Part shown: in pieces, positions 36,691 to 56,440 of the stretch
Position numbering within the stretch: position 1 is the stretch's first letter
How the letters are laid out: the number at the start of each line of letters is the position of its first letter
Source of the DNA: Fodinibius salsisoli
Lineage (GTDB): Bacteria > Bacteroidota > Rhodothermia > Balneolales > Balneolaceae
Length of the DNA: 64,000 nucleotides
Assembly: GCF_026229185.1 (NCBI RefSeq)
Contig: NZ_JAGGJA010000003.1
Location: forward strand, 62,001-126,000
Direction of reading: 5' to 3'
Made by a program: the position numbers and the translations under genes
The notes under the pieces: model-generated
What the model saw: the letters and a program-made list of their open reading frames with translations, nothing else
What the model was told of the DNA's origin: nothing
Database searches by the model: none

Positions 36691-37010
36691 TTATAGAGAA
36701 TAAATCACGAAATTAAAAGAGTGTTATTTGAACGAGGTTCATCTTTGCCGTTTGCTTCATGTGTTGGGCCGTGATCAACATTTCCACGTTCAGCCGAGTC
36801 GTTCGGTCAGCCAATGATCTTTTATGTGACTCGTGTAATATTATTATTGCGGCCCATGTATAACCACTTTACATAACCGAGGCTTATACGACAAGTGAGT
36901 AAATTTCACCGCGTAAAATCACTCTTTCTTTAAAAGAAACATCAGTCTAACATACCGCTGAAGAGTTTGTAGTAGATCCCGATTATGATAAAATGAAGTA
37001 GTCATATTGT
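36691..37010. other. intergenic region between efflux operon and transposition module
   Basis: These roughly 320 bases hold element E3 (36818-36894) and no gene. A copy of ATGAAGTAG lies at 36993-37001 and again near 40573, and its complement near 42704, which might mark transposase sites. The left edge of the AT-rich mobile segment probably lies here, but no clear terminal repeat was found. Confidence 0.4.
36818..36894 (-). promoter_or_regulatory. shared regulatory element E3, likely RND operon promoter
   Basis: On the minus strand it begins TTGTCGTATAAGCC, continues CGGTTATGTAAAGT and ends CGAGTCACATAAAAG. It matches E2 (19386-19480) at both ends and in the CGGTTAT-TAAAGT core, and resembles E1. 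TTGTCG and TAAAGT are 17 bases apart with a dyad-like centre, so it may be a metal-regulated promoter. It points to the His-rich leader and RND operon. Confidence 0.45.
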
Positions 37011-37571
37011 TCACTTAGTAACAGCTTGTATCTTGGTCCACTTCATTGATTTCTTCTCTTCCCTATATTCTTGGTATTCTCGAGTGCTGAGTTGTAGCCC
37101 GATCCATGAAGGTGCTTTGACTGTTCGCGGCTTAATACAACGGTATGTCGATTTCTGTTTAGAATTAGAGCTATTCTGTGATTCAATTCTTAGAAATTCG
37201 TTCTTGTCCAATAAAGATAAGTACTTATTTACTGTTTCTTGATGACATTTTGAAATACGCGTAATTTCTTTCATAGTAAAGGTTTTTAATGAGCGGGCCG
37301 CCTTCCATATTTTTTTAGGGATCGCTGGATCTTGAAAGTCTTTGGCTAGTTGTTTCTCATACTGCCGCTGTTTAATACACCCTTCGGTTAATGAATTCCA
37401 TTTAACAACCGCTTGATCCGGGTTCTTACCATCTGGACCTTTACAGAGACAGTCCGTATTCAGACAATTAATATTCCAATGTCTAAATGTTATACACCGT
37501 AATTCCAGAGGTACTCCTCCACAAAATGGACAGGGACGTGGTTTTACGATAAGGGCTTTGCCGATAGACAT
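37011..37571 (-). CDS. zinc-ribbon and helix-turn-helix protein of the transposition module
   Basis: A 186-residue protein. Residues about 12-60 form a zinc ribbon (PCPFCGGVPLEL ... NCLNTDCLC ... AVVKWN) like Lar-type restriction-alleviation proteins. Residues about 95-135 look like a helix-turn-helix (FTMKEITRISKCHQETVNKYLSLL). The tail is basic. It lies three bases downstream of the AAA ATPase, in the place where TniQ-like targeting proteins sit in Tn5053/Tn7 elements, but it has no clear TniQ similarity. A DNA-binding accessory role is inferred. Confidence 0.55.
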   Translation of the reverse strand: MSIGKALIVKPRPCPFCGGVPLELRCITFRHWNINCLNTDCLCKGPDGKNPDQAVVKWNSLTEGCIKQRQYEKQLAKDFQDPAIPKKIWKAARSLKTFTMKEITRISKCHQETVNKYLSLLDKNEFLRIESQNSSNSKQKSTYRCIKPRTVKAPSWIGLQLSTREYQEYREEKKSMKWTKIQAVTK

Positions 37572-37574
37572 AAG

Positions 37575-38261
37575 TTACTGAGGGGTTTTATCGATTAATT
37601 CCGGGGAAATAGATTCCATTGAATTTGTTTTTGCTTTTTCCTCCAAGTAGTGCAACCATGTCATAATTTTTCGAAACTCTCCGTTTGTAATCTCATATAA
37701 TCGTTCGGCCGTTTCTTCATGCATTGGAACCTCTGCAAGTTTCTCGCTAATCTCCAATATCTCGTCCTGATCAATAGGCCGAGCACGGATAACATCGGCA
37801 AAACGACTGTATAAGTGCGGAAAACCTTTCAGTTTTCGTTCTGCATTATGCATACCAATCAGGAGAAAACAATTACCACTCTCATCGTGAATATCCCTCA
37901 TAGTTTCTAGAATTTTGCTATCATGAAGCATATGATCAACTTCATCAATGATAACCAGTTTCGGATTTATACTTAACACCTCGACCGCTCGGTTATAGGC
38001 ATTTTTGATCCGTCCCTCTTGTTTTTCATTAAGTTCATGTAACAGATCATTGAGGAACCATCGGATCGACCACGCGGTTTTAGCCCGTAGATACACATAG
38101 TCTTTCTGCACATGCATATGAATAGCTGCCTCTGATTTACCTAATCCGGGAGAACCATAGAACAACCCCAAGCCGGGGGTACCGTTATCTGTTGTCAGTA
38201 GCGTATCGGCTAATTTATATAACCGTCGTACATTTTTAGTAATAACAAATTGATTTTTCAT
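37575..38261 (-). CDS. MuB-like AAA+ ATPase
   Basis: A 228-residue ATPase. The Walker A motif GSPGLGKS is at residues 36-43, the Walker B LVIIDEVDHM near residue 105, and a sensor motif LIGMHNAE follows. This is the size and form of MuB/TniB-type target-selecting ATPases that partner DDE transposases. It lies 79 bases downstream of the transposase gene in the same direction, as in Mu and Tn7-type modules. It would choose target DNA and activate the transposase. Confidence 0.8.
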   Translation of the reverse strand: MKNQFVITKNVRRLYKLADTLLTTDNGTPGLGLFYGSPGLGKSEAAIHMHVQKDYVYLRAKTAWSIRWFLNDLLHELNEKQEGRIKNAYNRAVEVLSINPKLVIIDEVDHMLHDSKILETMRDIHDESGNCFLLIGMHNAERKLKGFPHLYSRFADVIRARPIDQDEILEISEKLAEVPMHEETAERLYEITNGEFRKIMTWLHYLEEKAKTNSMESISPELIDKTPQ

Positions 38262-38340
38262 TTGGAGTCCTCCAATTACTTACTTTTTGTTAGGGTCAGT
38301 CTTCTGAATGTTATTGCTGTTTAAATGCATTAGTTTATTC

Positions 38341-40506
38341 CTACTTGAACAGTTCATTAACCCATCCGCTATATTTTGTTTTATACAGGCCAGTATAACT
38401 TTCACTTTGGATAAAGTTTTTAAGGAAAGTGATGTCTTCATCAGTGATTTCTTTTTTTTCCTTTCCGGCTATGTGTTCAAATCGCTCGTAGGGGTATTCA
38501 AACAGCGGACGTTCTACTGCTTCATTTACCTCATCTATGTCTACCGGGTAGTCTATTTGATTTGCACCACCGTCTTCTGTCTTCGTCTTTGAGTCCAGAT
38601 CATATGCTGATATGGGGGTAATATCCTCCTTTTCTTCTTCATCATCTTTAGGAATGAGCTTCCAGGCAGGCATGGTCGTATCATCATTCAAATTATAAAG
38701 TGCTTCGTTCGCCCGTTTTGCGCGTTTTCTCAAGCGTCTTCGTTGCTTCATCTGCTCACGAATCGTTGGATCAATCTCCCCTTCCTCATTGACCAATTGC
38801 TCAAACGGATGCTTCGCCTTGCAGGCATAGGCCTCACATAAGGGGACTCTGTGTCCCTCACTGTGGTCATAGACCCACACTTTCTCCGGTACCCGACGGG
38901 TATACCGGACGACCACCGGTTTATTCCAGCCTGTGAGTACGTCCCGATTTTGATACTCTATGCCTTCAATCGTAAATCGAGCCCGGCGGGGACGTTTTTT
39001 TTCAGCGCGAAGAAGCAGGTCTATCATATCCTTATAGGGTACGCCTGGCCCTTTACCATCTTCAAGCACTTGTAACGGCGTTTCCCCTTTTCGCAGGCCG
39101 CCATGATCTTCTTTCCCATAGGCCTGGAAGGTCCAGTGTTTCAGGGTCTTGAGAACTTCAGGGATGGTCGGCAGCCAATCTCCTACGTGTTTTTTGTAGG
39201 CCCGCGCATGCATCTGTTCATTGCGTTTAAGCCGGGGGACTTGCTCGTCAATGGAATTTCCCCGATAGGTCGGCAATAGCTTCGAAAACCGTTCATTAAG
39301 CTGATTGAAAAACTGCTCTATCGGTTTGCTTTGCGGGTGATAGGGTTTGGTGAAGTGGGTAATAATGCCATACCGCTGATAGATCCCGGCCAGCCTGGTA
39401 TCATAGAACTCTGGGCTCTTCGTAAAATGTTTGGCTTTAAAGGCTCGCCCGTTGTCTAAAATCACCGCCTCCGGAAACTTTCCGAGGGTTTTCACGGCAT
39501 CGGCTAACGCTTCGGAAATATTATCGGTATTCTCCGTGGGCATGATCGAAAGGCCAACGGGCATTCGGGAGCGTCCATCGTAGAAACAGATGAGCGTCGG
39601 ACGATGAGCTTTGCCCGTGTAAGGATGCTTTACATCAAAATTAAGTACGTGCCCATCTGCTATCAGGATTTCACCTACTGTTAAGGTATTCCAATCGCGG
39701 TCAATATAAGGCAGTACCTTATCATTGAGGGCTTTTTCTCCCTCCCGATATAACGTCCAGGTATCAAAGTGTTCGTTCTTATAGTCCTTTATCCACCGGC
39801 AGGCAGTCTTCGTGCTGCAAGGAGGCTCTCGGCCCTTCAATCGCAGGTTTGCATGCAGAATTTTAGCCGCCGTGGTAGGAGCAATTTGACTGGGCTGTAG
39901 CAATAATGCTAGTAGTCGCTTTTTATACCACGTTGGTATTGAATAGTGGCCTTTATTTCGCTGGTATTTGGGGGCAAGCGCTTTAATCACATCCTCCCCC
40001 TGTTGGCAAGCTTTTTTGTAATTGGGCCACCACCGCTGTTGGAGCATATATCCACTCACCTCCCCTATGGTCTTAAAGGTTTCTTCAAGGACATGGCCGC
40101 TATTATAGATTTCAGCCACCTCGTGATAAACCGGTGTAATATTCTTGTCCTGAGCCTTAGCTCGATTTAGGGCACGTTCCAACAGATGGATGAGATCAAG
40201 TCGGGCTTTGGCTTTTTCTATCGCCCACCCTGGTAACCCCTTGTGGTTGGATTCAAAAGAAAGTTGACTGTTCTTTTGTACATGTTGGATGTATTCCAAC
40301 CTATAAGGTTCCGGCAGGCCTTCAGGATTAATTAGATGCCGATAACCATTCCGCCCTGTAGAGTGTTCTTTTTTTAAATAATGATCGCTAATCCTTTCCC
40401 GTTCGATAAGTTTTCGAATGCCCCTCTTCCCTATACTAATAATTTGTGATAAATCAGTAACAGATATATAATTTGGCACCTCTTGCTGATTATCGAGTTT
40501 GAACAT
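38341..40506 (-). CDS. MuA-like DDE transposase
   Basis: A 721-residue protein. The N-terminus is a helix-turn-helix DNA-binding part (SVTDLSQIISIGKRGIRKLI, residues about 15-34). The integrase core has Asp284 (LIADGHV), Asp351 (VILDNGRAF) and Glu397 (QSKPIEQFFN), the DDE triad with Mu-like spacing. A Mu C-terminal-type beta-barrel (VLTGWNKPVVVRYTRRVPEKVWVYD) and a basic tail that would contact the ATPase follow. All catalytic residues are present, so it looks active. Length fits phage-Mu-type transposases. Confidence 0.88.
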   Translation of the reverse strand: MFKLDNQQEVPNYISVTDLSQIISIGKRGIRKLIERERISDHYLKKEHSTGRNGYRHLINPEGLPEPYRLEYIQHVQKNSQLSFESNHKGLPGWAIEKAKARLDLIHLLERALNRAKAQDKNITPVYHEVAEIYNSGHVLEETFKTIGEVSGYMLQQRWWPNYKKACQQGEDVIKALAPKYQRNKGHYSIPTWYKKRLLALLLQPSQIAPTTAAKILHANLRLKGREPPCSTKTACRWIKDYKNEHFDTWTLYREGEKALNDKVLPYIDRDWNTLTVGEILIADGHVLNFDVKHPYTGKAHRPTLICFYDGRSRMPVGLSIMPTENTDNISEALADAVKTLGKFPEAVILDNGRAFKAKHFTKSPEFYDTRLAGIYQRYGIITHFTKPYHPQSKPIEQFFNQLNERFSKLLPTYRGNSIDEQVPRLKRNEQMHARAYKKHVGDWLPTIPEVLKTLKHWTFQAYGKEDHGGLRKGETPLQVLEDGKGPGVPYKDMIDLLLRAEKKRPRRARFTIEGIEYQNRDVLTGWNKPVVVRYTRRVPEKVWVYDHSEGHRVPLCEAYACKAKHPFEQLVNEEGEIDPTIREQMKQRRRLRKRAKRANEALYNLNDDTTMPAWKLIPKDDEEEKEDITPISAYDLDSKTKTEDGGANQIDYPVDIDEVNEAVERPLFEYPYERFEHIAGKEKKEITDEDITFLKNFIQSESYTGLYKTKYSGWVNELFK

Positions 40507-40710
40507 AATGCTTAAGGTTATTTACAGGTATTCCATCCATTAGTTATTTAACTTCCTCGAGGTATTTAAAAATGAAGTAGGTAAAATGATCGTTGGTTAC
40601 TTTAAATTAACTCTACTACTATCAATGTCTCTAAACTTACCTCTTTCAATCAATTAAAGGAATTCCGGCTATCTCTTGCTAGAGAAAACGAATACATTTG
40701 TGTAATTAAG

Positions 40711-40739
40711 TTGACAAATGTCACCTCATGTATTACAAT
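40711..40739 (+). promoter_or_regulatory. sigma70-like promoter towards the repressor gene
   Basis: TTGACA (40711-40716) and TACAAT (40734-40739) are spaced by 17 bases, an excellent match to the housekeeping consensus. The -10 box lies inside the left arm of the operator, so the repressor can shut off its own promoter. Confidence 0.6.
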
Positions 40740-40765
40740 ATTGTATTACGATATTGTAATACATG
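40727..40765. promoter_or_regulatory. perfect 15-bp inverted-repeat operator
   Basis: CATGTATTACAATAT (40727-40741) is followed after nine bases by its exact complement ATATTGTAATACATG (40751-40765). The nine-base centre TGTATTACG repeats the half-site again, so three half-sites are stacked. It overlaps the -10 of the plus-strand promoter. The CI-like protein at 41005 is the likely binder. Confidence 0.75.
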
Positions 40766-41004
40766 TTTGAACATCATTTTTAGTATTTAAATTTGTAATA
40801 CCTTTTTTAAACTTTAGGATATTGATGGATAGAATCCCTAATGTATCCGAGAATATTTTGCTATACAGCAGTAGAAATTTGGATTGGGAAATAGAATTAA
40901 AGATTTCTCTTCTTATATTTATCATATGTGTAACACATGTTTTTAGTGAGCAATCCAACTCTCACATATACTGTATGTTTAATTTTTAGACAATCTCATC
41001 ATAA

Positions 41005-41430
41005 ATGGTGAAAAATTCAACAGATATTTGGAGTAGGCTATCTGAAGTGCTCAATGCGGACAATCTTGATGAAGTTGCTAAGAAGCTCGGTCTGAATGCC
41101 AGTACTTTAAGAGGAAGAAAAGCGAGGGAAGCTATACCTTACGAACAAATTGTTCAAAATCTGGACGTTTATGATTTAGTATATGTTTTCAAAGATAAAA
41201 AGATAAATAAACCTGTTGATTTACTGGACGGGATTAACCAAAAAGATATTGAAAAAGGTAATTTAAGCGAAATTGAACAATACCTTGACAAACTTGTCCA
41301 GGACATTGAAGAAGGACCTTTTTCCAGCAAATTTAAGCTAAGAATGGTTGCTTCTCTCATGCGTATAGCTGATGATAACCTTAAAAACTTTCAGGAAGAA
41401 ATCACTCGAGTACCATTAGAGGAAAGATAA
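41005..41430 (+). CDS. CI-like helix-turn-helix repressor
   Basis: A 141-residue protein. Residues about 8-60 fit the phage CI-type HTH domain: LSEVLNADNLDEVAKKLG, then LNASTLRGRKAREAIPYEQI with the recognition helix. The C-terminal part is acidic and helical, with no LexA/CI-type protease domain. It is transcribed away from the transposase across a region with a strong palindrome, the position of the repressor in Mu-like elements. It would keep the transposition genes silent. Confidence 0.75.
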   Translation: MVKNSTDIWSRLSEVLNADNLDEVAKKLGLNASTLRGRKAREAIPYEQIVQNLDVYDLVYVFKDKKINKPVDLLDGINQKDIEKGNLSEIEQYLDKLVQDIEEGPFSSKFKLRMVASLMRIADDNLKNFQEEITRVPLEER

Positions 41431-41459: not shown

Positions 41460-42110
41460 TTATTTATCTTTCGGGATGCTATTTGTATAGAGAATATTGG
41501 AATATAAAGTCTCACCATATGGCCAGCGTATGCCACCCCGATGTGTCCCTGCCCAACTGAAGTAATCTGGATCTTGTAGCTCAGAAAAGATTCCTTTACG
41601 GAGTGGCTTTAGGTCAAAAATACGTTGCTCTCCACTCTCGAAAGTTAATTCAAGCTTAAAATTATCCAAGGGAGATACGGCTGACACATCTGGGACCGGA
41701 CCTGAAGAGGTTTTCAAGCCTCCTAACAATTTTTCTCGTTGTTTTCTCCGTTCTTTGATTTCCCGTTTAACTTGATTAACTGGTATTCCATCTCCTTCTT
41801 TAAATGATTTAGTTCTGGCCCGAAGGGTACAATGAAGATGGATTTTCTCTATTAGATCGAAAAGGGTTTTCATTCGACTATCTCCATCATCATCCGGTGA
41901 ATTTTCAGTTTCTTCAGCTGGGGACATGTCATCGGGTAATGGCGGAGGAATATTTTCAAACTTTCTCATAAGGTGATTAGCCTCAACAATCCAATCCGCA
42001 TTTAGGCCTGATTCTGAAGAATCTATACTCTGGTAAATTTCATCTGCTAATTGCTCACGCAAAGCATTGGGCAGGTCGAAAATAATATTGAGCAACTCTT
42101 GTTTCTTCAT
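41460..42110 (-). CDS. DUF2442 protein with N-terminal addiction-module-like part
   Basis: A 216-residue protein. The first 40 residues (ELLNIIFDLPNALREQLADEIYQSI) resemble the short helical addiction-module component found before RelE-type toxins. A charged middle follows (residues about 75-130). Residues about 135-205 match DUF2442 (LDNFKLELTFESGEQRIFDL ... GIRWPYGETLYSNILY). DUF2442 genes usually accompany DUF4160 partners in toxin-antitoxin-like pairs; no partner is seen here. It converges on the repressor gene and is probably cargo of the mobile element. Confidence 0.6.
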   Translation of the reverse strand: MKKQELLNIIFDLPNALREQLADEIYQSIDSSESGLNADWIVEANHLMRKFENIPPPLPDDMSPAEETENSPDDDGDSRMKTLFDLIEKIHLHCTLRARTKSFKEGDGIPVNQVKREIKERRKQREKLLGGLKTSSGPVPDVSAVSPLDNFKLELTFESGEQRIFDLKPLRKGIFSELQDPDYFSWAGTHRGGIRWPYGETLYSNILYTNSIPKDK

Positions 42111-42344
42111 TCTATTAATAAGTTTTTTGTTCCCCTTGCTATTTTCAGCTACTAAAGTATTGAAATAGTACTATGAAAAAAATTGGTATAATAAAATAAT
42201 TTTCAGAAAACACCTGTTGGTCCAAGAATACCCTTACTGCTTGCTGTCAATAGATATCAAAAGAGATGAAATGCAAAACAATTTAAGCTTATTCAATTTT
42301 GCCAGTCACAGCTACCAACTACTGGCTTAAAATGTAGGTGTTCA

Positions 42345-42597
42345 ATTTATTTTAATCTGCTTGTCCATATTTGACTAATTTAGAATTTTGGGCCTTTTTA
42401 GCTCCCGAAAACAAAATAATCCAAAATGCCTCTCTCGTCGCTTAAACGTATATTATGGGGCAGAACCCTCAATTCACATTATTTTATTTTACTTGTCCAG
42501 TGATAACATGCTCTAAGCGGAATTTATTATCGATGGTATCGATGGTATCGATGGACAGGCAGATTAAAATAAATGGACAACCAAAATAAAATAATTC
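42345..42597. repeat. four related TGGACA-headed repeats in inverted arrangement
   Basis: R1 (minus, 42345-42367) and R3 (plus, 42552-42574) are the same 23-base sequence with one difference, starting TGGACA and containing GCAGATTAAAATAAAT. R2 (minus, 42477-42499) and R4 (plus, 42574-42597) start TGGACAA and contain AAAATAAAATAAT. R1/R2 point left and R3/R4 point right, with the TGGACA ends facing each other. Paired 22-bp sites with TG at the outer end are typical of transposase-binding ends. Confidence 0.65.
42528..42554. repeat. three tandem TATCGATGG units
   Basis: Three perfect 9-base units run from 42528 to 42554, the last running into repeat R3. It is a short minisatellite, possibly a replication-slippage product or insertion scar between the two repeat pairs. 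Confidence 0.8.
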
Positions 42598-42981: not shown

Positions 42982-43692
42982 TCAAGACTCAGTATCCTGG
43001 ATTTTTATTTTGTTACGGATGTCTTCTACACCTTCTAAAAATTTATCAAACTCATCTAATATAGTCTTACTATCATCTTCTTCTTCATAAAAGTTCTTTA
43101 AGCGATCAAGTGATTTAATATCATATCCTGGTACCGAATCAATACTATTTTCAAGCCATACATTAACACTGCCATTCTTTGATTTTTCATACGCCTTAGC
43201 TAAACAAAACCTGAGTAGTTTTCTGGTATAACTATTAATCAATTCAACCTTGTTAATCCAGTATTTAACTTCAGAATCCAATTCCTCTTCTTTAACTTTG
43301 TCAAAATCCTTCAGTTGATGAAAAGGTCTTGGATCTCCTTTGGGATCAATCTTTTTTAATACATGAAATATTTGTTCAAAGTCTTCGAATGGGCGACTAC
43401 CGTTTGGTAAGTGCCCCCTCCTTTCCCATAATTTCAGAATAGTATCAAAACATTTTTCTTTCGCTTTGATTTCTTCTTCCCCTGTTGCATTTTCGGCGAT
43501 TACAATTTGTTCAGATATGTAATGTGCCATCCATTTAGAAAGAGTATCAACCCCGGATTGTAACTCTAATTCTTGAACAAGTTCCTTACCCAAGTTGATA
43601 GCTCGTTTCTGTATCTCTGAGCTCACCTTCTTCTGAGAGGATATAAACTTTACTTTCTCTTGTATATGTTCCCGATTGTCTTCCTGGCTCAT
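42982..43692 (-). CDS. partner protein of the STAND nuclease (Avs3b-like)
   Basis: A 236-residue soluble, helical, charged protein. Residues about 50-110 contain WMAHYISEQIVIAENATG, a CFDTILKLWERRGHLPNG stretch and SRPFEDFEQIF, a pattern I associate with small partners of large STAND defence proteins. From ATG 43692 it overlaps the 3' end of the large gene by 107 bases in another frame. A TTG at 43593 would cut the overlap to 8 bases. Downstream position and overlap show that the two are co-expressed. The Avs3b label is a judgement from architecture, not a search result. Confidence 0.55.
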   Translation of the reverse strand: MSQEDNREHIQEKVKFISSQKKVSSEIQKRAINLGKELVQELELQSGVDTLSKWMAHYISEQIVIAENATGEEEIKAKEKCFDTILKLWERRGHLPNGSRPFEDFEQIFHVLKKIDPKGDPRPFHQLKDFDKVKEEELDSEVKYWINKVELINSYTRKLLRFCLAKAYEKSKNGSVNVWLENSIDSVPGYDIKSLDRLKNFYEEEDDSKTILDEFDKFLEGVEDIRNKIKIQDTES

Positions 43693-46600
43693 TTAGACTC
43701 CTATTTATTTGCACTTCGATGATAAGTTTTTTGTTTAAAGCTTCACACATCTGTTTAATGAATTGAAATGAACAACTCATTTTCAAGCCGCCGATATTAA
43801 GTTCATCTCTACCATGCTGTTTCTTTAAACTCCAAATACGACAGTCTAGGGCTGATTTGCTAGATTTAGTCTGGAACCATTCTCTTTTTGCCGAATCATG
43901 AGACAAATTAAATCTATTTACATAAGATTTGCCAATATTATAAGAAGGATCAAACTTGTCTATTCCTAATGACTTATGTTCATCATAAATCCAACCAAAT
44001 AACTCAAAAGGATAATCATCAAACTCAAAACCCGCTTCATCATACGATGGAATTTTAAAATCAGATGCATTTTCACAATTATTCAATGCAATAAGTAACG
44101 ATTCCGCTCCTTCTATAGATACAAAAGCACTTGAGATACGAATTCTTTCATTTTTGTAATTATTATACTCATTCCAACTTCCATATACATTTAGCCAAGA
44201 TTTTTTTATATCATCAAAAAATAGAGTATTAAGAAAGTCATTGGGTCCAATTCCGTTAACCCACTCATTTCTTTTTTCTTTGCAATTAACCCATGACCGT
44301 CGTTTAATTGGAAATGGGTCACGCCGATCAGACAACCATTTTCCATCTTTCCGAGTTAGAGTATGTCTTTCTAACCAGTTCTCCCAGGTTTCCTCCTCCC
44401 AGTTCCGACGATTAGCTGTTGGCATTTCTTCTAATAATTTTGATGCAACAACTAACATTGCATGGTATGAGATATAGAAACGGTAATTATCTGTTTCAGG
44501 ATACGATGATTTGAAGTGCGTAGTTTCTCTCCCCGAGTGGTGAGAATTCCAAAGGTTATGTCGAGGATCTTTTATGGATTTATCTTCTATTTCAAGATCC
44601 CATTCATTAAAAACTATCTCCTTGGCTAAATCTGCAACTTGTTCCATGTTAATACCAAACGCCCTACCTAAAGCATCCAACCAAGACCTTTTAAAATCAT
44701 GAGGAAAATAAAACTCTAAACTTTCATCAATCGACTCCTCTTCATGCCATGGACTATCGACCCTATCGTCAAGACCTTCAAGATCCCTAACAGAAAGTTG
44801 GCTTTTTCCTACTTTTTTTAATTGGTCAATTAGTCCGGCATCATAAATATCTGGAAAAGCAGCTGCTAAAGATAATGCTATCTCTGCAGCATACTTTTGA
44901 ATCAATATATGCTGAGTATTTAACGCTAAATTAACTAATAAATCGCTCTCATCTTTTAATATCTCAGGATTATCAATTGCAATACGGGATAAAGCAATTA
45001 ATAAATACTGTTTTGCATGAAGATCATAAAAAGGAAATTTCTCTGACCCAAAAGAATCTACAGTACCTTTTTCAAGCCATTTTAATAAGGAATTAATTTC
45101 GCTCTTACAATTCGACTCTGCCAATCTGCGCACACAGTGTACTGCTTCCCAACGCTTACTGGATCTAGGTTCTCCAAGAGCAGCCCATACAAATCCTGTA
45201 AACGCATCGGTAACATCTGTTGGAGGCTTTAACGAATCAGCCCATGAACCATCTCCGAAAACCTCTTCAATGTGTAGTTCGAATCTGGAGAGCGAAAAAT
45301 CCAATATATCGGATGCCTCTTCAGTAGAAATAAATGAAGAGGCAATCTCAGCAAATCCAAAAAAACCATCCGAACCTAAAAAAGCTGAAGACCCGGATAA
45401 GCCTTTTATTATCCCCTCATACAAAGAGGAAATATCGTCAATATCCAGAGAAACTTGATTCAAAAAGTAATTTCTACCGCCTTGAGTTGTTAATTGATGA
45501 GAAAAGCGCCGACCAATCGATTCAATAATATTAGGCCATGCTTTTTTAACACTAATTTTTTGTCTCCATCTGATGGGTATTTGACTAAGTATATCCTTGA
45601 TTTCATAAATACTTAACTCGTCGATGTTAACAATCAGTTCTAGTGCTTTCTTAGCTTTAGTATCTGGTATACGTTGTATTAATTCATCCCAAAAATATTC
45701 AACGGACAAAAACTGATTTTGGGATATGGAGTCAAACTGTTCTTTGGCCTTCAATATTCCAGATTTGGTAACTATATCTAATCCTCGAAATACATTATCC
45801 CAATCTATTTCACTGCTTTCTGATTTGTTATAACTCCTATTCGATGAACCAGTAACCTGGTCTTCTTCTTTGGTCAACTCTAAGACTTGATCCAAATCTC
45901 TTTCTTTAATCTGTAAATCTTGTATTGCTTCTTTTAACTTTTGGTATGCACCAAAGTTGGAACCACCCAATCTTAAATCTCTATAAGCAGTATCGAAAAT
46001 ATATTGTTGCTGTCTTTCATCATTTCCTTTTTGTAGACATAAAGCAGCGAAATCTAGATAGCCGTATTCAAAACTAAAAGCTGACAAACTCCAACCAACG
46101 GTAGGATTAATAACATCTGATCGTACCAGCTCATCAGCTAATGGCCTTACTTGCCGGTCAAACCACCCAACGCGCCTGTCCCTCCATCTACTTAGAGCAG
46201 ATAAAGCAGAACAAGGACTTAGTTTGGCACATGTCCTAATAGCACCATTTCGGTGAAAGTGCTTTTCTCGAGCTACGTTGTTACCGACCAATTCAGCTAC
46301 TCTTATGAATCGATATGCGGTTTTTGGAATTTGATCATTCTCCTGAGCTCTCCGATTGGCGACAGCAACCAATGCCTCCCATCTATCTATAATTTCATAT
46401 CCAAATTTAGATACTGCTTCGATGGCAAGGTTAAAATATTCAGCTGAGTCAGCTGGACTTACATTTAAAACGGCACGGGATAATTCAACATACCATTCTG
46501 CTACTGTTTCAGTATCGGCATCAGAAACGGTTTCAATTTCCTGGTAGCAAGATTGTTCAAGCTGATGTCTTAGGTCTTTTAAATGTTCTAACCTATAAGC

Positions 46601-49600
46601 AGTTCGTAATGCCTTCAACTTATCCTTAAGCCAATAGCTTGCTTCTTCTTGTGATAATTTTTCCTTAAATGAATTGATTAAAAACGAGTCCGATTCTTGG
46701 TAAAATTTAAGTAATTCAAACTGTATTCGTGTTATTTCATAAGGTAGATTATCATTTTGCCTCCATCTATTAGAGGTGGCATTACTAGAGGCTTTGGCTG
46801 TTTTCGAATATTCTTCTTCAAAATCTTCTAAATTTTCAGTTATATTCCTAGCTCGTAACAGATACCAAGGGAATAATCCCCCAATTACTTCATCAAAATT
46901 TCTTCTATCCCTATTTGTGTGGCGATTTCTTTCATCATCTATTAATGACTTGGGCATGTACTGCTCCAAATCTGGATTTAAATTATTTGAGAGTACACAC
47001 TTAAGAGAGTGACCTCTTAAGAAAAAACTACGTCCTCCAGTTTGATGATTACTAGAAATTGAGTTTGAAGCTCTATTAGGGACAAAATATTTTAAAATTC
47101 GAAGTATTTTTTTTTCTTCAAGTCCCTGATTCGCACACGCCTCTGCAAATGATATAATCGCATCCCGTAGTGGCTCTGTCCCCCAACTCCGAAAATCTCT
47201 AGATGGTCGAGTCCTACGATGGATCATCCAGGTCAAACAGTCTTCAATAACTTCCGCCTGTAGGAATCTCCCTATTTTTAAAAGTTCATGCACAATCGCA
47301 ATGATAAAATAAGGACTTCGATTGCCTAAACGATTACCTAGAGGAGCTAGTTTAAAAACAGTCTCTATCTTACCATGATCAATTAACCGCCTTACAAAGA
47401 GACTGGTAATATTGAATATTGTCTGAGGAGGCTTCCAGCTGTGAATGAAACTAACCGTCTCTTCGGGTCCGAAGAGGTTGTAATATGAAATGATAAATTC
47501 TAGTATATCTATCTTACTTAGTTTATCATTTTCATGCTCCTCGGCTTCTTCTCTTTCTTCAAAGTATAATTCAAGCCAACGATGAGCGGCTCTTATAAAT
47601 GCCCTGGCTTCCCCCTTAAAATCCTCGGAATACGATAATAGAGTTGCAGAATATAAATTCTCTGAACCATCCCATTGCCCTTTTAAATCTCGTTTATAAG
47701 CCACCTCTTGCACCTTTTGCTTCGATTGTAAGGCCGCCATTAGATCTGTATTCCCCTGAAGAATATTAAATTGTCTATCATCACTTGCAACCTCTTCACC
47801 AGCTCGAAATGCTATTTGGGCTGCATCTGCAATTTTGTTTTTCTGTAATGCTGCTTTGAAAGCAAATTGTAGCCTATATAAACGAACATTACGCTCATCT
47901 ATGGGATTATTTTCAGGCAAAAGCTCTTCTGAAAGTGCTAAATCAATAAGTTTTTGATACTTTTCAGCTTTTAACAATAAGGATGGCAATGCCTCAGCAA
48001 CATAGGTGTAATCTCTTGCCAATGGTTTAATGTTTTCAACAAAGGATTCAATTTGATCTGCAGTAGCCGAGTATTTCTCCCGAAACCAAGTCTCAGTATT
48101 TTCATCTCTAAATTGAACAGAGTTATCTGAAATCCATAAAGGCCTACCTAAATCAGCTACAAAACTTTTTACTTCTGACTCTTGAACATCTGTAGCAGCC
48201 GCAAGTATCTCTAAAGGTATTAATGGAGGAAGATTCGCGAGACCTATACAAATTGAATCAATTTGCTCTTGATAATCACCGGTTAAATTATCTCTTAACC
48301 TTTCAACTGCTGAATCAAGTTGTGCTGATATTTGGTCTTCAACTGTGCTTGTAGAAGGACCAATACTTTCTAAAAGTTCTGTTACACTATCCAATTCAAA
48401 ATCAAGAGCATTAGCTTGTACTCTTGGATTTCCACCAGTCAAACGGTGAAATTCTCTAGCCTCATCAGCAGTCGCTTCTGGATAATATTGTGAAAGATGA
48501 ACAGAGGTCTCATTTTCATTGAATGGTTTAAGTTGGCATTCTTCGACAATGCTAGATGGGTTCAATAGGTGTTTTCTTTCAGTACGACATAAAGCAATAA
48601 TGCGACAACCCTCTGGCACATCCTCTCTCAACAACTGGTTTACAAAACATGATTCAGCAAATTCTTTTGCTGCCATTTCTGCATTGTCAGCAGCATCAAT
48701 AAATATACTCAATATTGCATCATCATTAATTTTACGGAGTTCTGTAGATGCTTTATCTAACCTTCGTAAAAAAGTCCGAATTAAACTTACATCATCCGAA
48801 GAATTTGGTTGTGGTATTAGTGGTTCGCATAATCCCTCAGCTGCTATCTCATTTGCAATCTGAATCAAGCCGTCAAGATGACGATGTCTTGAATGACTCC
48901 GATTTCTGTACTTTCCAGCACCAAAACAATCGTAGATAATACCTAAAGAACCTGATGGAAGTGATTCCGCAAGTTGTACAGATATAACTGACTTACCAAC
49001 GCCACCACTAGCATGAATTATTTTGGGGGATAAATTTTTAAGTATAAATTTCTTTAATTGATCGTGTTGTTCCCTTACTATTAGATGTTCCGGTACATCA
49101 AGCATACTGGGAGCTGGGAAAAGTTCTTTCTCTGAAGAAACCCCAAATCTTTTTAACACATCCACTCTAACAATTTTTCCCTCGTTATCAGGTAAAACTT
49201 TCTCTTGGACAAGTGCTTCAATACTATTAATAATTGTGCTATCTACAACTCCTACTATAAATTTTCCAACTTCAAAGCTTAACTCATGTTTTTGGATATT
49301 GTAGTCTCCCTCACCATCAACTAAGTGTAAGTGCTTGCAAAAATCTCTTAGTTCCCCATTATCAAAATCAGTATACCTTTTGAGAGTCTTCACAAAAGTC
49401 TGATGGGGAGAATTTCTGTTGATTATATCTTCGACAGCTTTTTTAAAACGTTCATTAATTGGTCGATTAGTAATAATTGAAAACTCGACAGATTCGATAT
49501 CTTCATCATTTTTCAGAGATTTAAATCGCTGAGCAAATCCTTCGACTGTTTTCTTCAATTCACTTAGCTGAAATACTTTATCTACTCTCTTTGTTGAGTG

Positions 49601-49822
49601 TTTCAGCTGAAAGTATCCAACAGCTCTTCCCTGGTCACTTTTTTTATAATACTCAGCAACATCGATTACATATTCTCCTTTTCTATCATTTTCCTCAGAC
49701 CCCTCAATATAGACACACTCGATGGGTGACTTAGGGTGTATCATTTTTAAACAACGACGTGCAGCCCAACGATAGTGAAAAACGTCTCCTGCTCTCGAAT
49801 ATCTTACAAGATTTTGATCCAT
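43586..49822 (-). CDS. giant PD-(D/E)xK nuclease-STAND NTPase (Avs3a-like defence protein)
   Basis: A 2078-residue protein in one uninterrupted frame. Residues about 8-190 resemble the DUF4297/Cap4 class of restriction-like nucleases: AGDVFHYRWAARRCL, then Asp54 (YVIDVAEY) and Gln72-x-Lys74 (YFQLKHS). Residues about 240-470 form a STAND-type NTPase with Walker A ASGGVGKS (271-278) and Walker B LSIFIDAADN (Asp376). The remaining 1500 residues are helical repeats, the usual sensor part. Nuclease-STAND-solenoid order, size and a small downstream gene match AVAST type 3 systems, which recognise a phage protein and then degrade DNA. Low G+C and the neighbouring recombinase and transposon indicate transfer. 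Confidence 0.75.
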   Translation of the reverse strand: MDQNLVRYSRAGDVFHYRWAARRCLKMIHPKSPIECVYIEGSEENDRKGEYVIDVAEYYKKSDQGRAVGYFQLKHSTKRVDKVFQLSELKKTVEGFAQRFKSLKNDEDIESVEFSIITNRPINERFKKAVEDIINRNSPHQTFVKTLKRYTDFDNGELRDFCKHLHLVDGEGDYNIQKHELSFEVGKFIVGVVDSTIINSIEALVQEKVLPDNEGKIVRVDVLKRFGVSSEKELFPAPSMLDVPEHLIVREQHDQLKKFILKNLSPKIIHASGGVGKSVISVQLAESLPSGSLGIIYDCFGAGKYRNRSHSRHRHLDGLIQIANEIAAEGLCEPLIPQPNSSDDVSLIRTFLRRLDKASTELRKINDDAILSIFIDAADNAEMAAKEFAESCFVNQLLREDVPEGCRIIALCRTERKHLLNPSSIVEECQLKPFNENETSVHLSQYYPEATADEAREFHRLTGGNPRVQANALDFELDSVTELLESIGPSTSTVEDQISAQLDSAVERLRDNLTGDYQEQIDSICIGLANLPPLIPLEILAAATDVQESEVKSFVADLGRPLWISDNSVQFRDENTETWFREKYSATADQIESFVENIKPLARDYTYVAEALPSLLLKAEKYQKLIDLALSEELLPENNPIDERNVRLYRLQFAFKAALQKNKIADAAQIAFRAGEEVASDDRQFNILQGNTDLMAALQSKQKVQEVAYKRDLKGQWDGSENLYSATLLSYSEDFKGEARAFIRAAHRWLELYFEEREEAEEHENDKLSKIDILEFIISYYNLFGPEETVSFIHSWKPPQTIFNITSLFVRRLIDHGKIETVFKLAPLGNRLGNRSPYFIIAIVHELLKIGRFLQAEVIEDCLTWMIHRRTRPSRDFRSWGTEPLRDAIISFAEACANQGLEEKKILRILKYFVPNRASNSISSNHQTGGRSFFLRGHSLKCVLSNNLNPDLEQYMPKSLIDDERNRHTNRDRRNFDEVIGGLFPWYLLRARNITENLEDFEEEYSKTAKASSNATSNRWRQNDNLPYEITRIQFELLKFYQESDSFLINSFKEKLSQEEASYWLKDKLKALRTAYRLEHLKDLRHQLEQSCYQEIETVSDADTETVAEWYVELSRAVLNVSPADSAEYFNLAIEAVSKFGYEIIDRWEALVAVANRRAQENDQIPKTAYRFIRVAELVGNNVAREKHFHRNGAIRTCAKLSPCSALSALSRWRDRRVGWFDRQVRPLADELVRSDVINPTVGWSLSAFSFEYGYLDFAALCLQKGNDERQQQYIFDTAYRDLRLGGSNFGAYQKLKEAIQDLQIKERDLDQVLELTKEEDQVTGSSNRSYNKSESSEIDWDNVFRGLDIVTKSGILKAKEQFDSISQNQFLSVEYFWDELIQRIPDTKAKKALELIVNIDELSIYEIKDILSQIPIRWRQKISVKKAWPNIIESIGRRFSHQLTTQGGRNYFLNQVSLDIDDISSLYEGIIKGLSGSSAFLGSDGFFGFAEIASSFISTEEASDILDFSLSRFELHIEEVFGDGSWADSLKPPTDVTDAFTGFVWAALGEPRSSKRWEAVHCVRRLAESNCKSEINSLLKWLEKGTVDSFGSEKFPFYDLHAKQYLLIALSRIAIDNPEILKDESDLLVNLALNTQHILIQKYAAEIALSLAAAFPDIYDAGLIDQLKKVGKSQLSVRDLEGLDDRVDSPWHEEESIDESLEFYFPHDFKRSWLDALGRAFGINMEQVADLAKEIVFNEWDLEIEDKSIKDPRHNLWNSHHSGRETTHFKSSYPETDNYRFYISYHAMLVVASKLLEEMPTANRRNWEEETWENWLERHTLTRKDGKWLSDRRDPFPIKRRSWVNCKEKRNEWVNGIGPNDFLNTLFFDDIKKSWLNVYGSWNEYNNYKNERIRISSAFVSIEGAESLLIALNNCENASDFKIPSYDEAGFEFDDYPFELFGWIYDEHKSLGIDKFDPSYNIGKSYVNRFNLSHDSAKREWFQTKSSKSALDCRIWSLKKQHGRDELNIGGLKMSCSFQFIKQMCEALNKKLIIEVQINRSLNEPGRQSGTYTRESKVYILSEEGELRDTETSYQLG

Positions 49823-49843: not shown

Positions 49844-50441
49844 TTAAACTAATCTTTCCAGTGCCTTTTTAACTCGCTGCACTGTACTTTTACTTTTCTC
49901 AGTAAGCCTGCCTGTTCTTCGAATCGATTCTCCCCTATTTAATTCTTCTACTATATCCGAATGTTTTTCAATTAAATCAATATCCGATAACCTTGACCCA
50001 TTTGCCCTACCCCTGTATTTACCTTCTGCTTTAGCGCGGGCAATACCTTCTCGTTGTGCCTCCCTCCTGTTATTGTAATCTATCTCGGCTAAGGTACTTA
50101 ATACCGATACCAATAATTTGGCCACCGGATTCTGATCTCCATTATCAAGTAAGGTATTAAGGCCTTCTTTTTTTGATTTCACATTTACCCCTAATTCCGT
50201 AAACCGCTTAATCGTTTGCAGAGCATTAATGGCGTCCCGTCCAAGTCGATCTATGGAATGAACTTCAACTTCATCAATTTTTCCTTTCTCGGCATCGGCC
50301 AGCAGCCGGGCCGCATCCTCGCGATCTTCAAAGGCGACCATGCCGGAGACTTTATCCCAGTACACCTCCCCTTCTTTGCCCTCGAGTTGGGGGAATATTT
50401 TGCTCAAATGTGGACACGCGGACGTAGGTAGCTTTCATCAT
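49844..50441 (-). pseudogene. serine recombinase (resolvase) with frameshift after the catalytic serine
   Basis: From ATG 50441 the frame encodes MMKATYVRVSTFEQNI, the conserved resolvase start with catalytic Ser in VRVST. It then runs out of frame. The rest of the protein (GKEGEVYWDKVSGM ... IDRLGRDAINAL ... KSTVQRVKKAL) continues to 49844 in the frame one base away. Spacing against family members fits a net loss of two bases near 50390-50396, next to a run of C. The main frame alone, from a TTG at 50407, lacks the nucleophile. It is 21 bases upstream of the defence gene in the same direction. Confidence 0.75.
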
Positions 50442-56045: not shown

Positions 56046-56440
56046 GATTTTTGGGTTTGATAGGTTATTTATGGTCCATTATAAATGGGTATTCAATCTC
56101 CCTAAATCCCTCTTACCGCCGGCAGGCGGTCATGGCTCCAAAGCCTGTCCCGGTACACTTTCGGGGAGGGACTTTGCTTTGTCCGTCTGACAAGCAATCC
56201 GCAGCACTCATATCCGGCAACGAGTTCCTCCTTGGAGAAGGAGGACAGGAGGATTGATTTATTTTGTTAAGTTGAATCAGCTCTTTCATCATATATCAGG
56301 CCTGTTTTAACTGCTAAATGCCATTCACTAACTAATCTCCTTTGATAAACTGATAGGATTTCTATCCCAGGTTACATATACGACATCCTGCTTAAACAAA
56401 TCTACAGCATTGGAATAAGGGAAGTAAGAAAGCTTAAATG
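56046..56440. repeat. intergenic palindromic dispersed-repeat-like sequence
   Basis: This 395-base gap holds no gene. Between 56111 and 56255 lie two G/C-rich hairpins: ACCGCC-GGCA-GGCGGT (56115-56130) and CCTCCTT-GGAG-AAGGAGG (56227-56244), joined by a GGGAGGGAC stretch. Palindrome pairs of this kind are typical of dispersed intergenic repeats; a smaller CCCTTAGGAGAGGGG-like piece occurs at 8664. Confidence 0.5.

Follow-up and report, generated by a model that had tools for sequence, protein, structure and literature searches.

Introduction

Avs anti-phage proteins differ in the phage protein that they recognise. As set out in PMC12724215, Avs1-3 recognise the phage large terminase, the target of Avs4 is the portal, and a Klebsiella Avs2 additionally binds Ksap1; in PMC12931631, JADA is named as the protein sensed by Avs5, and the Avs1-Avs4 nucleases are said to cleave both the phage and the host genome. 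For SeAvs3 of Salmonella, PMC11291478 describes how binding of the viral protein to the sensor leads to a tetramer, in which the nuclease domains pair and become active. As far as we found in the literature, experimental knowledge of Avs3 rests on SeAvs3. Here we analyse a pair of genes in a stretch of 64,000 nucleotides of Fodinibius salsisoli DNA (the window). The pair is a divergent member of Avs3, a system that is already known and widespread, with hundreds of relatives, and not a new system.

Identification of the Avs3 pair

Both ORFs are present on the minus strand with the coordinates and lengths originally claimed for them, one encoding a 2078-aa protein (49822..43586) and the other a 236-aa protein (43692..42982). 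The features of the locus are as follows.

43586..49822, minus strand: avs3a, encoding a 2078-aa protein with a Cap4/DUF4297-type nuclease, a STAND NTPase and a sensor (PADLOC, NF041816, 8dgc)
49178..49822, minus strand: PD-(D/E)xK nuclease domain, residues ~1-215, with E40, D54 and Q72-x-K74 (alignment, 82-row counts)
48383..49177, minus strand: STAND/NACHT NTPase domain, residues ~216-480, with Walker A K277 and Walker B D376/D379 (alignment, 82-row counts)
44222..47542, minus strand: helical-repeat sensor, residues ~761-1867 (AlphaFold2 model, Foldseek)
43586..44221, minus strand: beta-rich domain at the C-terminus of the sensor, residues ~1868-2078 (DSSP of the model)
42982..43692, minus strand: avs3b, encoding the 236-aa all-helical partner (PADLOC Avs3b, NF041817, AlphaFold2)
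43586..43692, minus strand: stretch of 107 nt in which avs3b and the 3' end of avs3a overlap out of frame (+1) (coordinates, relatives)
43698..43702, minus strand: Shine-Dalgarno sequence AGGAG, within avs3a and separated from the avs3b ATG by 5 nt (sequence, scan)

Pfam searches returned almost nothing on the pair, including no nuclease match in the large protein, so that the identification was settled by specialised profiles. Firstly, the 2078-aa protein matches the PADLOC Avs3a profile (PDLC02167) with 1635.7 bits over residues 2-2068, and Avs3a alone: the PADLOC profiles of the other Avs types (1, 2, 4 and 5) gave no match at E <= 0.01. Secondly, the 236-aa protein matches the PADLOC Avs3b profile (PDLC02168) with 139 bits (E 5.8e-41). 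The AVAST type 3 identity put forward in the original prediction thus stands, with a family match for the large protein and an Avs3b-like match for the small one, the two results whose absence had been named as grounds for giving it up. The corresponding NCBIfam models scored 1745.1 bits (NF041816) and 145.8 bits (NF041817), under their equivalog cut-offs of 2800 and 200 bits; these cut-offs delimit a narrow naming group, not homology, and we therefore write "divergent Avs3" and not "equivalog". The only significant match of the large protein to a solved structure was SeAvs3 (PDB 8dgc), over its whole length and with 1060.6 bits. The match to Avs3 had been proposed by architecture; it holds, but it amounts to more than architecture, namely to end-to-end homology with SeAvs3.

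The nuclease and ATPase residues are conserved in an alignment of avs3a with nine relatives, later extended to 82 rows. The predicted nuclease motif, Asp54 and Gln72-x-Lys74, lies at exactly the positions given (D54 is kept in 80 of the 82 rows, Q72 in 79 and K74 in all 82), and Glu40, kept in 79 rows, is a further nearly invariant acidic residue. The positions predicted for the STAND NTPase were equally exact: Walker A reads ..SGGVGKSV.. with K277, Walker B contains Asp376, and K277, D376 and D379 are each present in 82/82 rows.

Relatives and distribution

An alignment-based scan of one genome per species identified 264 relatives, the best 80 of which were kept. A single-sequence scan of genome contigs came back empty because its patterns had been drawn from variable stretches. 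Plasmids supplied 19 further records with relatives, and no phage record encodes one. In a FastTree phylogeny built from 82 proteins there are two main clades, each with high local support. One of them contains close SeAvs3 relatives from Klebsiella, Pantoea, Pseudomonas and rhizobia; the other, here named clade II, contains proteins from Bacillota, Bacteroidota, Chloroflexota, Cyanobacteriota and some Gammaproteobacteria. Within clade II, the Avs3a of the window occupies a terminal branch (0.74) for which no sister has good support. The expectation of a poorly sampled member therefore applies to the branch of the window protein, whose nearest relatives are ~50% identical, but not to the family with its 264 relatives. 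The phylum of the host (Bacteroidota in the GTDB sense) also includes Avs3 records from Chlorobiaceae and Flavobacteriaceae, and one Avs3a of the set (G398) is nearly identical to a Paenimyroides protein. Among 195 related genomes we found no Avs3 pair and one remote homologue without Avs3b. In the host's family, locus L029 (genome G068) codes for a remote Avs3a-like protein of 2159 aa that lacks a downstream avs3b and joins the tree by a very long branch; this protein possibly belongs to a different STAND family.

A subclade of clade-II Avs3a proteins, from Shewanella plasmid pSBAL17502 (L009:1799-8101), Vibrio coralliilyticus (L101) and Thalassotalea loyana (L107), has a degenerate nuclease motif. 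E40 and Q72 are lost in all three proteins and D54 in two of the three, avs3b is kept, and an N-terminal segment GRAVAxGxxxNAPxFTGDI is present. A change of effector in this subclade is possible.

The sensor and its target

The AlphaFold2 model of Avs3a residues 890-2078 has a mean pLDDT of 86.6 and a pTM of 0.81. According to DSSP, the modelled sensor is helical until about residue 1867 and beta-rich from there to the C-terminus. The helical repeats consequently span fewer than the ~1500 residues first given: the helical character is confirmed as far as residue ~1867, but the last ~210 residues are beta-rich in the model. In a Foldseek search, the sensor model matched 8dgc_A, "Avs3 bound to phage PhiV-1 terminase", with an E-value of 9.6e-51 and a TM score of 0.74, and the matches that followed were generic repeat proteins, far behind. 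A phmmer search with the sensor alone also recovered 8dgc (E 1.4e-127). Thus, the suggested comparison of the C-terminal part with terminase-bound Avs3 yielded a match in both sequence and predicted fold.

Conservation along the sensor is uneven. Residues ~1101-1250, 1501-1640 and 1701-1850 form blocks that are conserved in both clades; the stretches ~751-1100 and ~1251-1500 are poorly conserved, so that the target could have drifted. Given these poorly conserved blocks, and an identity of ~32% to the SeAvs3 group, we regard the terminase as a probable target and not as an established one. It is conceivable that the clade of the window protein uses the same fold and the same nuclease output to sense another phage protein, such as the portal or an early protein. 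The separation of this clade from that of SeAvs3 and the variable sensor blocks speak for such a shift, as do the differing targets reported, in PMC12724215 and PMC12931631, within the Avs families (the portal for Avs4, Ksap1 for a Klebsiella Avs2, JADA for Avs5). However, the three conserved blocks are shared across clades and the predicted fold is that of the terminase-bound structure, and we consider a shift of target quite unlikely.

Genomic setting

The pair lies in a block of low GC content: over ~40-50.9 kb the values are 33-41%, whereas they reach 50-56% at 34-36 kb and at 51-52 kb. On one side of the block there is a Mu/TniAB-like cassette, and on the other a serine recombinase with a frameshift.

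49844..50441, minus strand: serine recombinase pseudogene, frameshifted near the N-terminus, directly upstream of avs3a (Resolvase domain, frames)
37011..41430, no single strand: Mu/TniA-TniB-like transposition cassette with repressor (Pfam Mu-transpos_C, rve, TniB, weak Phage_CI_repr)
40506..38341: integrase-core transposase of the cassette
38261..37575: AAA ATPase of the cassette
37571..37011: HTH protein of the cassette
41005..41430: divergent CI-like repressor (weak Phage_CI_repr)

Both mobile elements had been anticipated. The neighbouring transposon corresponds to the Mu/TniAB-like genes detected with Pfam, and the recombinase is indeed broken: its N-terminal YVRVST.EQN segment is in another frame from the rest, which carries a Pfam Resolvase domain (33-145/145) in 50407..49844. 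Between the end of this gene and the avs3a ATG there are 21 nt, and longer, uninterrupted copies of it are present elsewhere in the same genome. We rejected the recombinase as a component of the Avs3 locus, as it directly precedes avs3a in no other locus. Synteny within the genus was found on the left flank in one relative (88%), only as far as window position 36893; the right flank had no syntenic match, and the search for an empty site in the same genus found none. This setting fits a gain of the pair by horizontal transfer.

A frameshifted recombinase, an adjoining Mu/TniAB-like cassette and the sporadic occurrence of the pair in the family would also be seen if the locus were a decaying, non-functional remnant within a mobile island. 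However, neither gene is interrupted anywhere along its length, the catalytic residues are all kept, and the overlap and the Shine-Dalgarno sequence are preserved, which makes decay very improbable.

Three further elements were observed in the surroundings. A ~19-nt motif (ATTTTAnnnnnCTTGTCCA) occurs four times, with 0-1 mismatch, between the cassette and avs3b (window 42332-42595), with two of its copies pointing each way; they may be transposase-binding end repeats of the cassette. The region 41460-42110, adjoining the cassette, encodes a single protein in which an Unstab_antitox-like N-terminus (under the curated cut-off) is joined to a DUF2442 domain. An intergenic repeat at window 56092-56260 has many copies in the genome and is found in most genomes of the genus.

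avs3b and its overlap with avs3a

The AlphaFold2 model of Avs3b is all-helical (pLDDT 82.4). Seven plasmid-record rows were left out of the first structure prediction. No solved relative was found by sequence, and a Foldseek search of the PDB gave no significant match. W89 is invariant, and L34, G35, D49, W54, M55, C81, I85, L112 and D153 are nearly so. The gene adjoins avs3a in almost all relatives with sufficient downstream sequence, and in almost every such locus its reading frame opens within avs3a and has a constant offset to that of avs3a (overlap length modulo 3 = 2). The likely avs3b starts are located 44 nt before the avs3a stop in most Bacteroidota, ~23 nt before it in parts of the SeAvs3 clade, and ~74-125 nt before it in other lineages, many of them with a Shine-Dalgarno sequence. 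This layout fits translational coupling. The original prediction placed the small gene after the large one and made no mention of an overlap. We rejected a programmed frameshift that would fuse Avs3a and Avs3b: the relatives show no fused ORF, and the Shine-Dalgarno sequence and ATG favour independent initiation.

The +1 frame is open for at least 74 nt in 63 of the 80 loci, against 30.5 expected after synonymous redrawing of the avs3a codons; the loci are related by descent, and this excess is therefore support and not a probability. Taken singly, the overlap in the window is not significant, as 22.5% of the synonymous redraws reach it, and the case for the window start thus rests on the Shine-Dalgarno sequence. 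It may be that avs3b starts further in, at a GTG that precedes the avs3a stop by 41 nt, and that the longer overlap is a mere open frame: 79% of the relatives have a Met at the position of Lys22 in the window protein, directly before the GTG codon of Val23, and the NCBIfam Avs3b model begins at residue 34. Against this, the ATG at 107 nt has the AGGAG 5 nt in front of it, the conserved internal Met is absent from the window protein, and the excess of open frames extends across the loci. We hold the shorter gene to be doubtful, but to be taken seriously.

Distances between Avs3b proteins correlate with those of Avs3a blocks (rho 0.73 overall). The partial signals, with the highest (0.22-0.23) at residues 1851-2030, are too weak for placing a binding site, and possibly reflect linkage alone. 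The retention of avs3b in relatives with a degenerate nuclease hints that Avs3b acts for the receptor and not for the nuclease, which we treat as a lead. It has been observed separately that a Qipengyuania plasmid (NZ_CP142674, L008:7932-8678) carries an avs3b homologue (30% identity) with no avs3a, near a tyrosine integrase; this gene is either an orphaned partner or a remnant.

The partner gene also enters a bolder proposal, namely that clade II senses a phage protein other than the terminase and that Avs3b is a control subunit which the receptor requires and whose fold is unseen in solved structures. The argument for it is that Avs3b is locked into avs3a by the conserved out-of-frame overlap and is kept despite the loss of the nuclease motif. 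We judge this proposal unlikely.

Proposed mechanism and significance

We consider it very probable that the pair forms an anti-phage system of AVAST type 3 (Avs3), which senses the terminase and cuts DNA. By computation we show that the pair is homologous to known Avs3, that its catalytic and ATPase residues are intact, that its sensor is predicted to fold like that of SeAvs3, and that its two genes have a coupled layout. Every feature required by the steps known from SeAvs3 is intact in the pair, so that the same mechanism is the best explanation. By analogy with SeAvs3, Avs3a would rest as an inactive STAND protein. Upon phage infection, its C-terminal sensor would bind a phage protein that is conserved, with the large terminase subunit as the most likely candidate, and ATP-dependent oligomerisation (to a tetramer in SeAvs3) would then pair the N-terminal PD-(D/E)xK domains. 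The paired domains would cut phage and host dsDNA, stopping the infection and usually also the cell; this cleavage and the abortive outcome are, like the target, carried over from SeAvs3. Avs3b would be translated from the message of avs3a, with its own start within that gene, and is most likely a small partner (a regulator, chaperone or co-factor), although this role is a guess. The NCBIfam scores below the cut-offs, the ~31-33% identity to the SeAvs3 group, the separate clade and the poorly conserved sensor stretches count against this explanation.

Two results deserve to be kept, the position of the window Avs3a in clade II and the recurring overlapped partner gene. An intact clade-II representative on a branch without close relatives can test how far the conservation of terminase sensing reaches. 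The recurrence of the overlap, in turn, makes the role of Avs3b a defined question that can be answered with mutants.

Comparison with known systems

SeAvs3 (Salmonella, 8dgc) resembles the window protein in domain order and length (2092 versus 2078 aa), in end-to-end homology (1061 bits), in the sensor fold (TM 0.74) and in the nuclease and Walker residues common to both. On the other hand, the window protein is ~31-33% identical to the SeAvs3 group (~32% to a close relative from Klebsiella), and SeAvs3 belongs to the other major clade. The nearest proteins among the best 80 of the 264 relatives are the Avs3a of an Anaerolineales bacterium (L041) and of Nostoc calcicola (L071), with 49-51% identity in the best segment. 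Like the window pair, they have the two-gene overlapping layout and belong to clade II; however, they come from phyla other than that of the host, and the window protein is on its own long branch. Plasmid NZ_CP065214 of Priestia megaterium encodes an Avs3a that is 46% identical to that of the window, with Avs3b downstream. This pair differs in being plasmid-borne, from Bacillota and unnamed in the record, and its avs3b is annotated with an overlap of 14 nt, although the frame is open for 125 nt. Finally, DUF4297-HerA and Cap4 (CBASS) have no STAND sensor and act with other partners or second-messenger triggers; their nuclease domains share ancestry with that of SeAvs3, according to PMC11291478.
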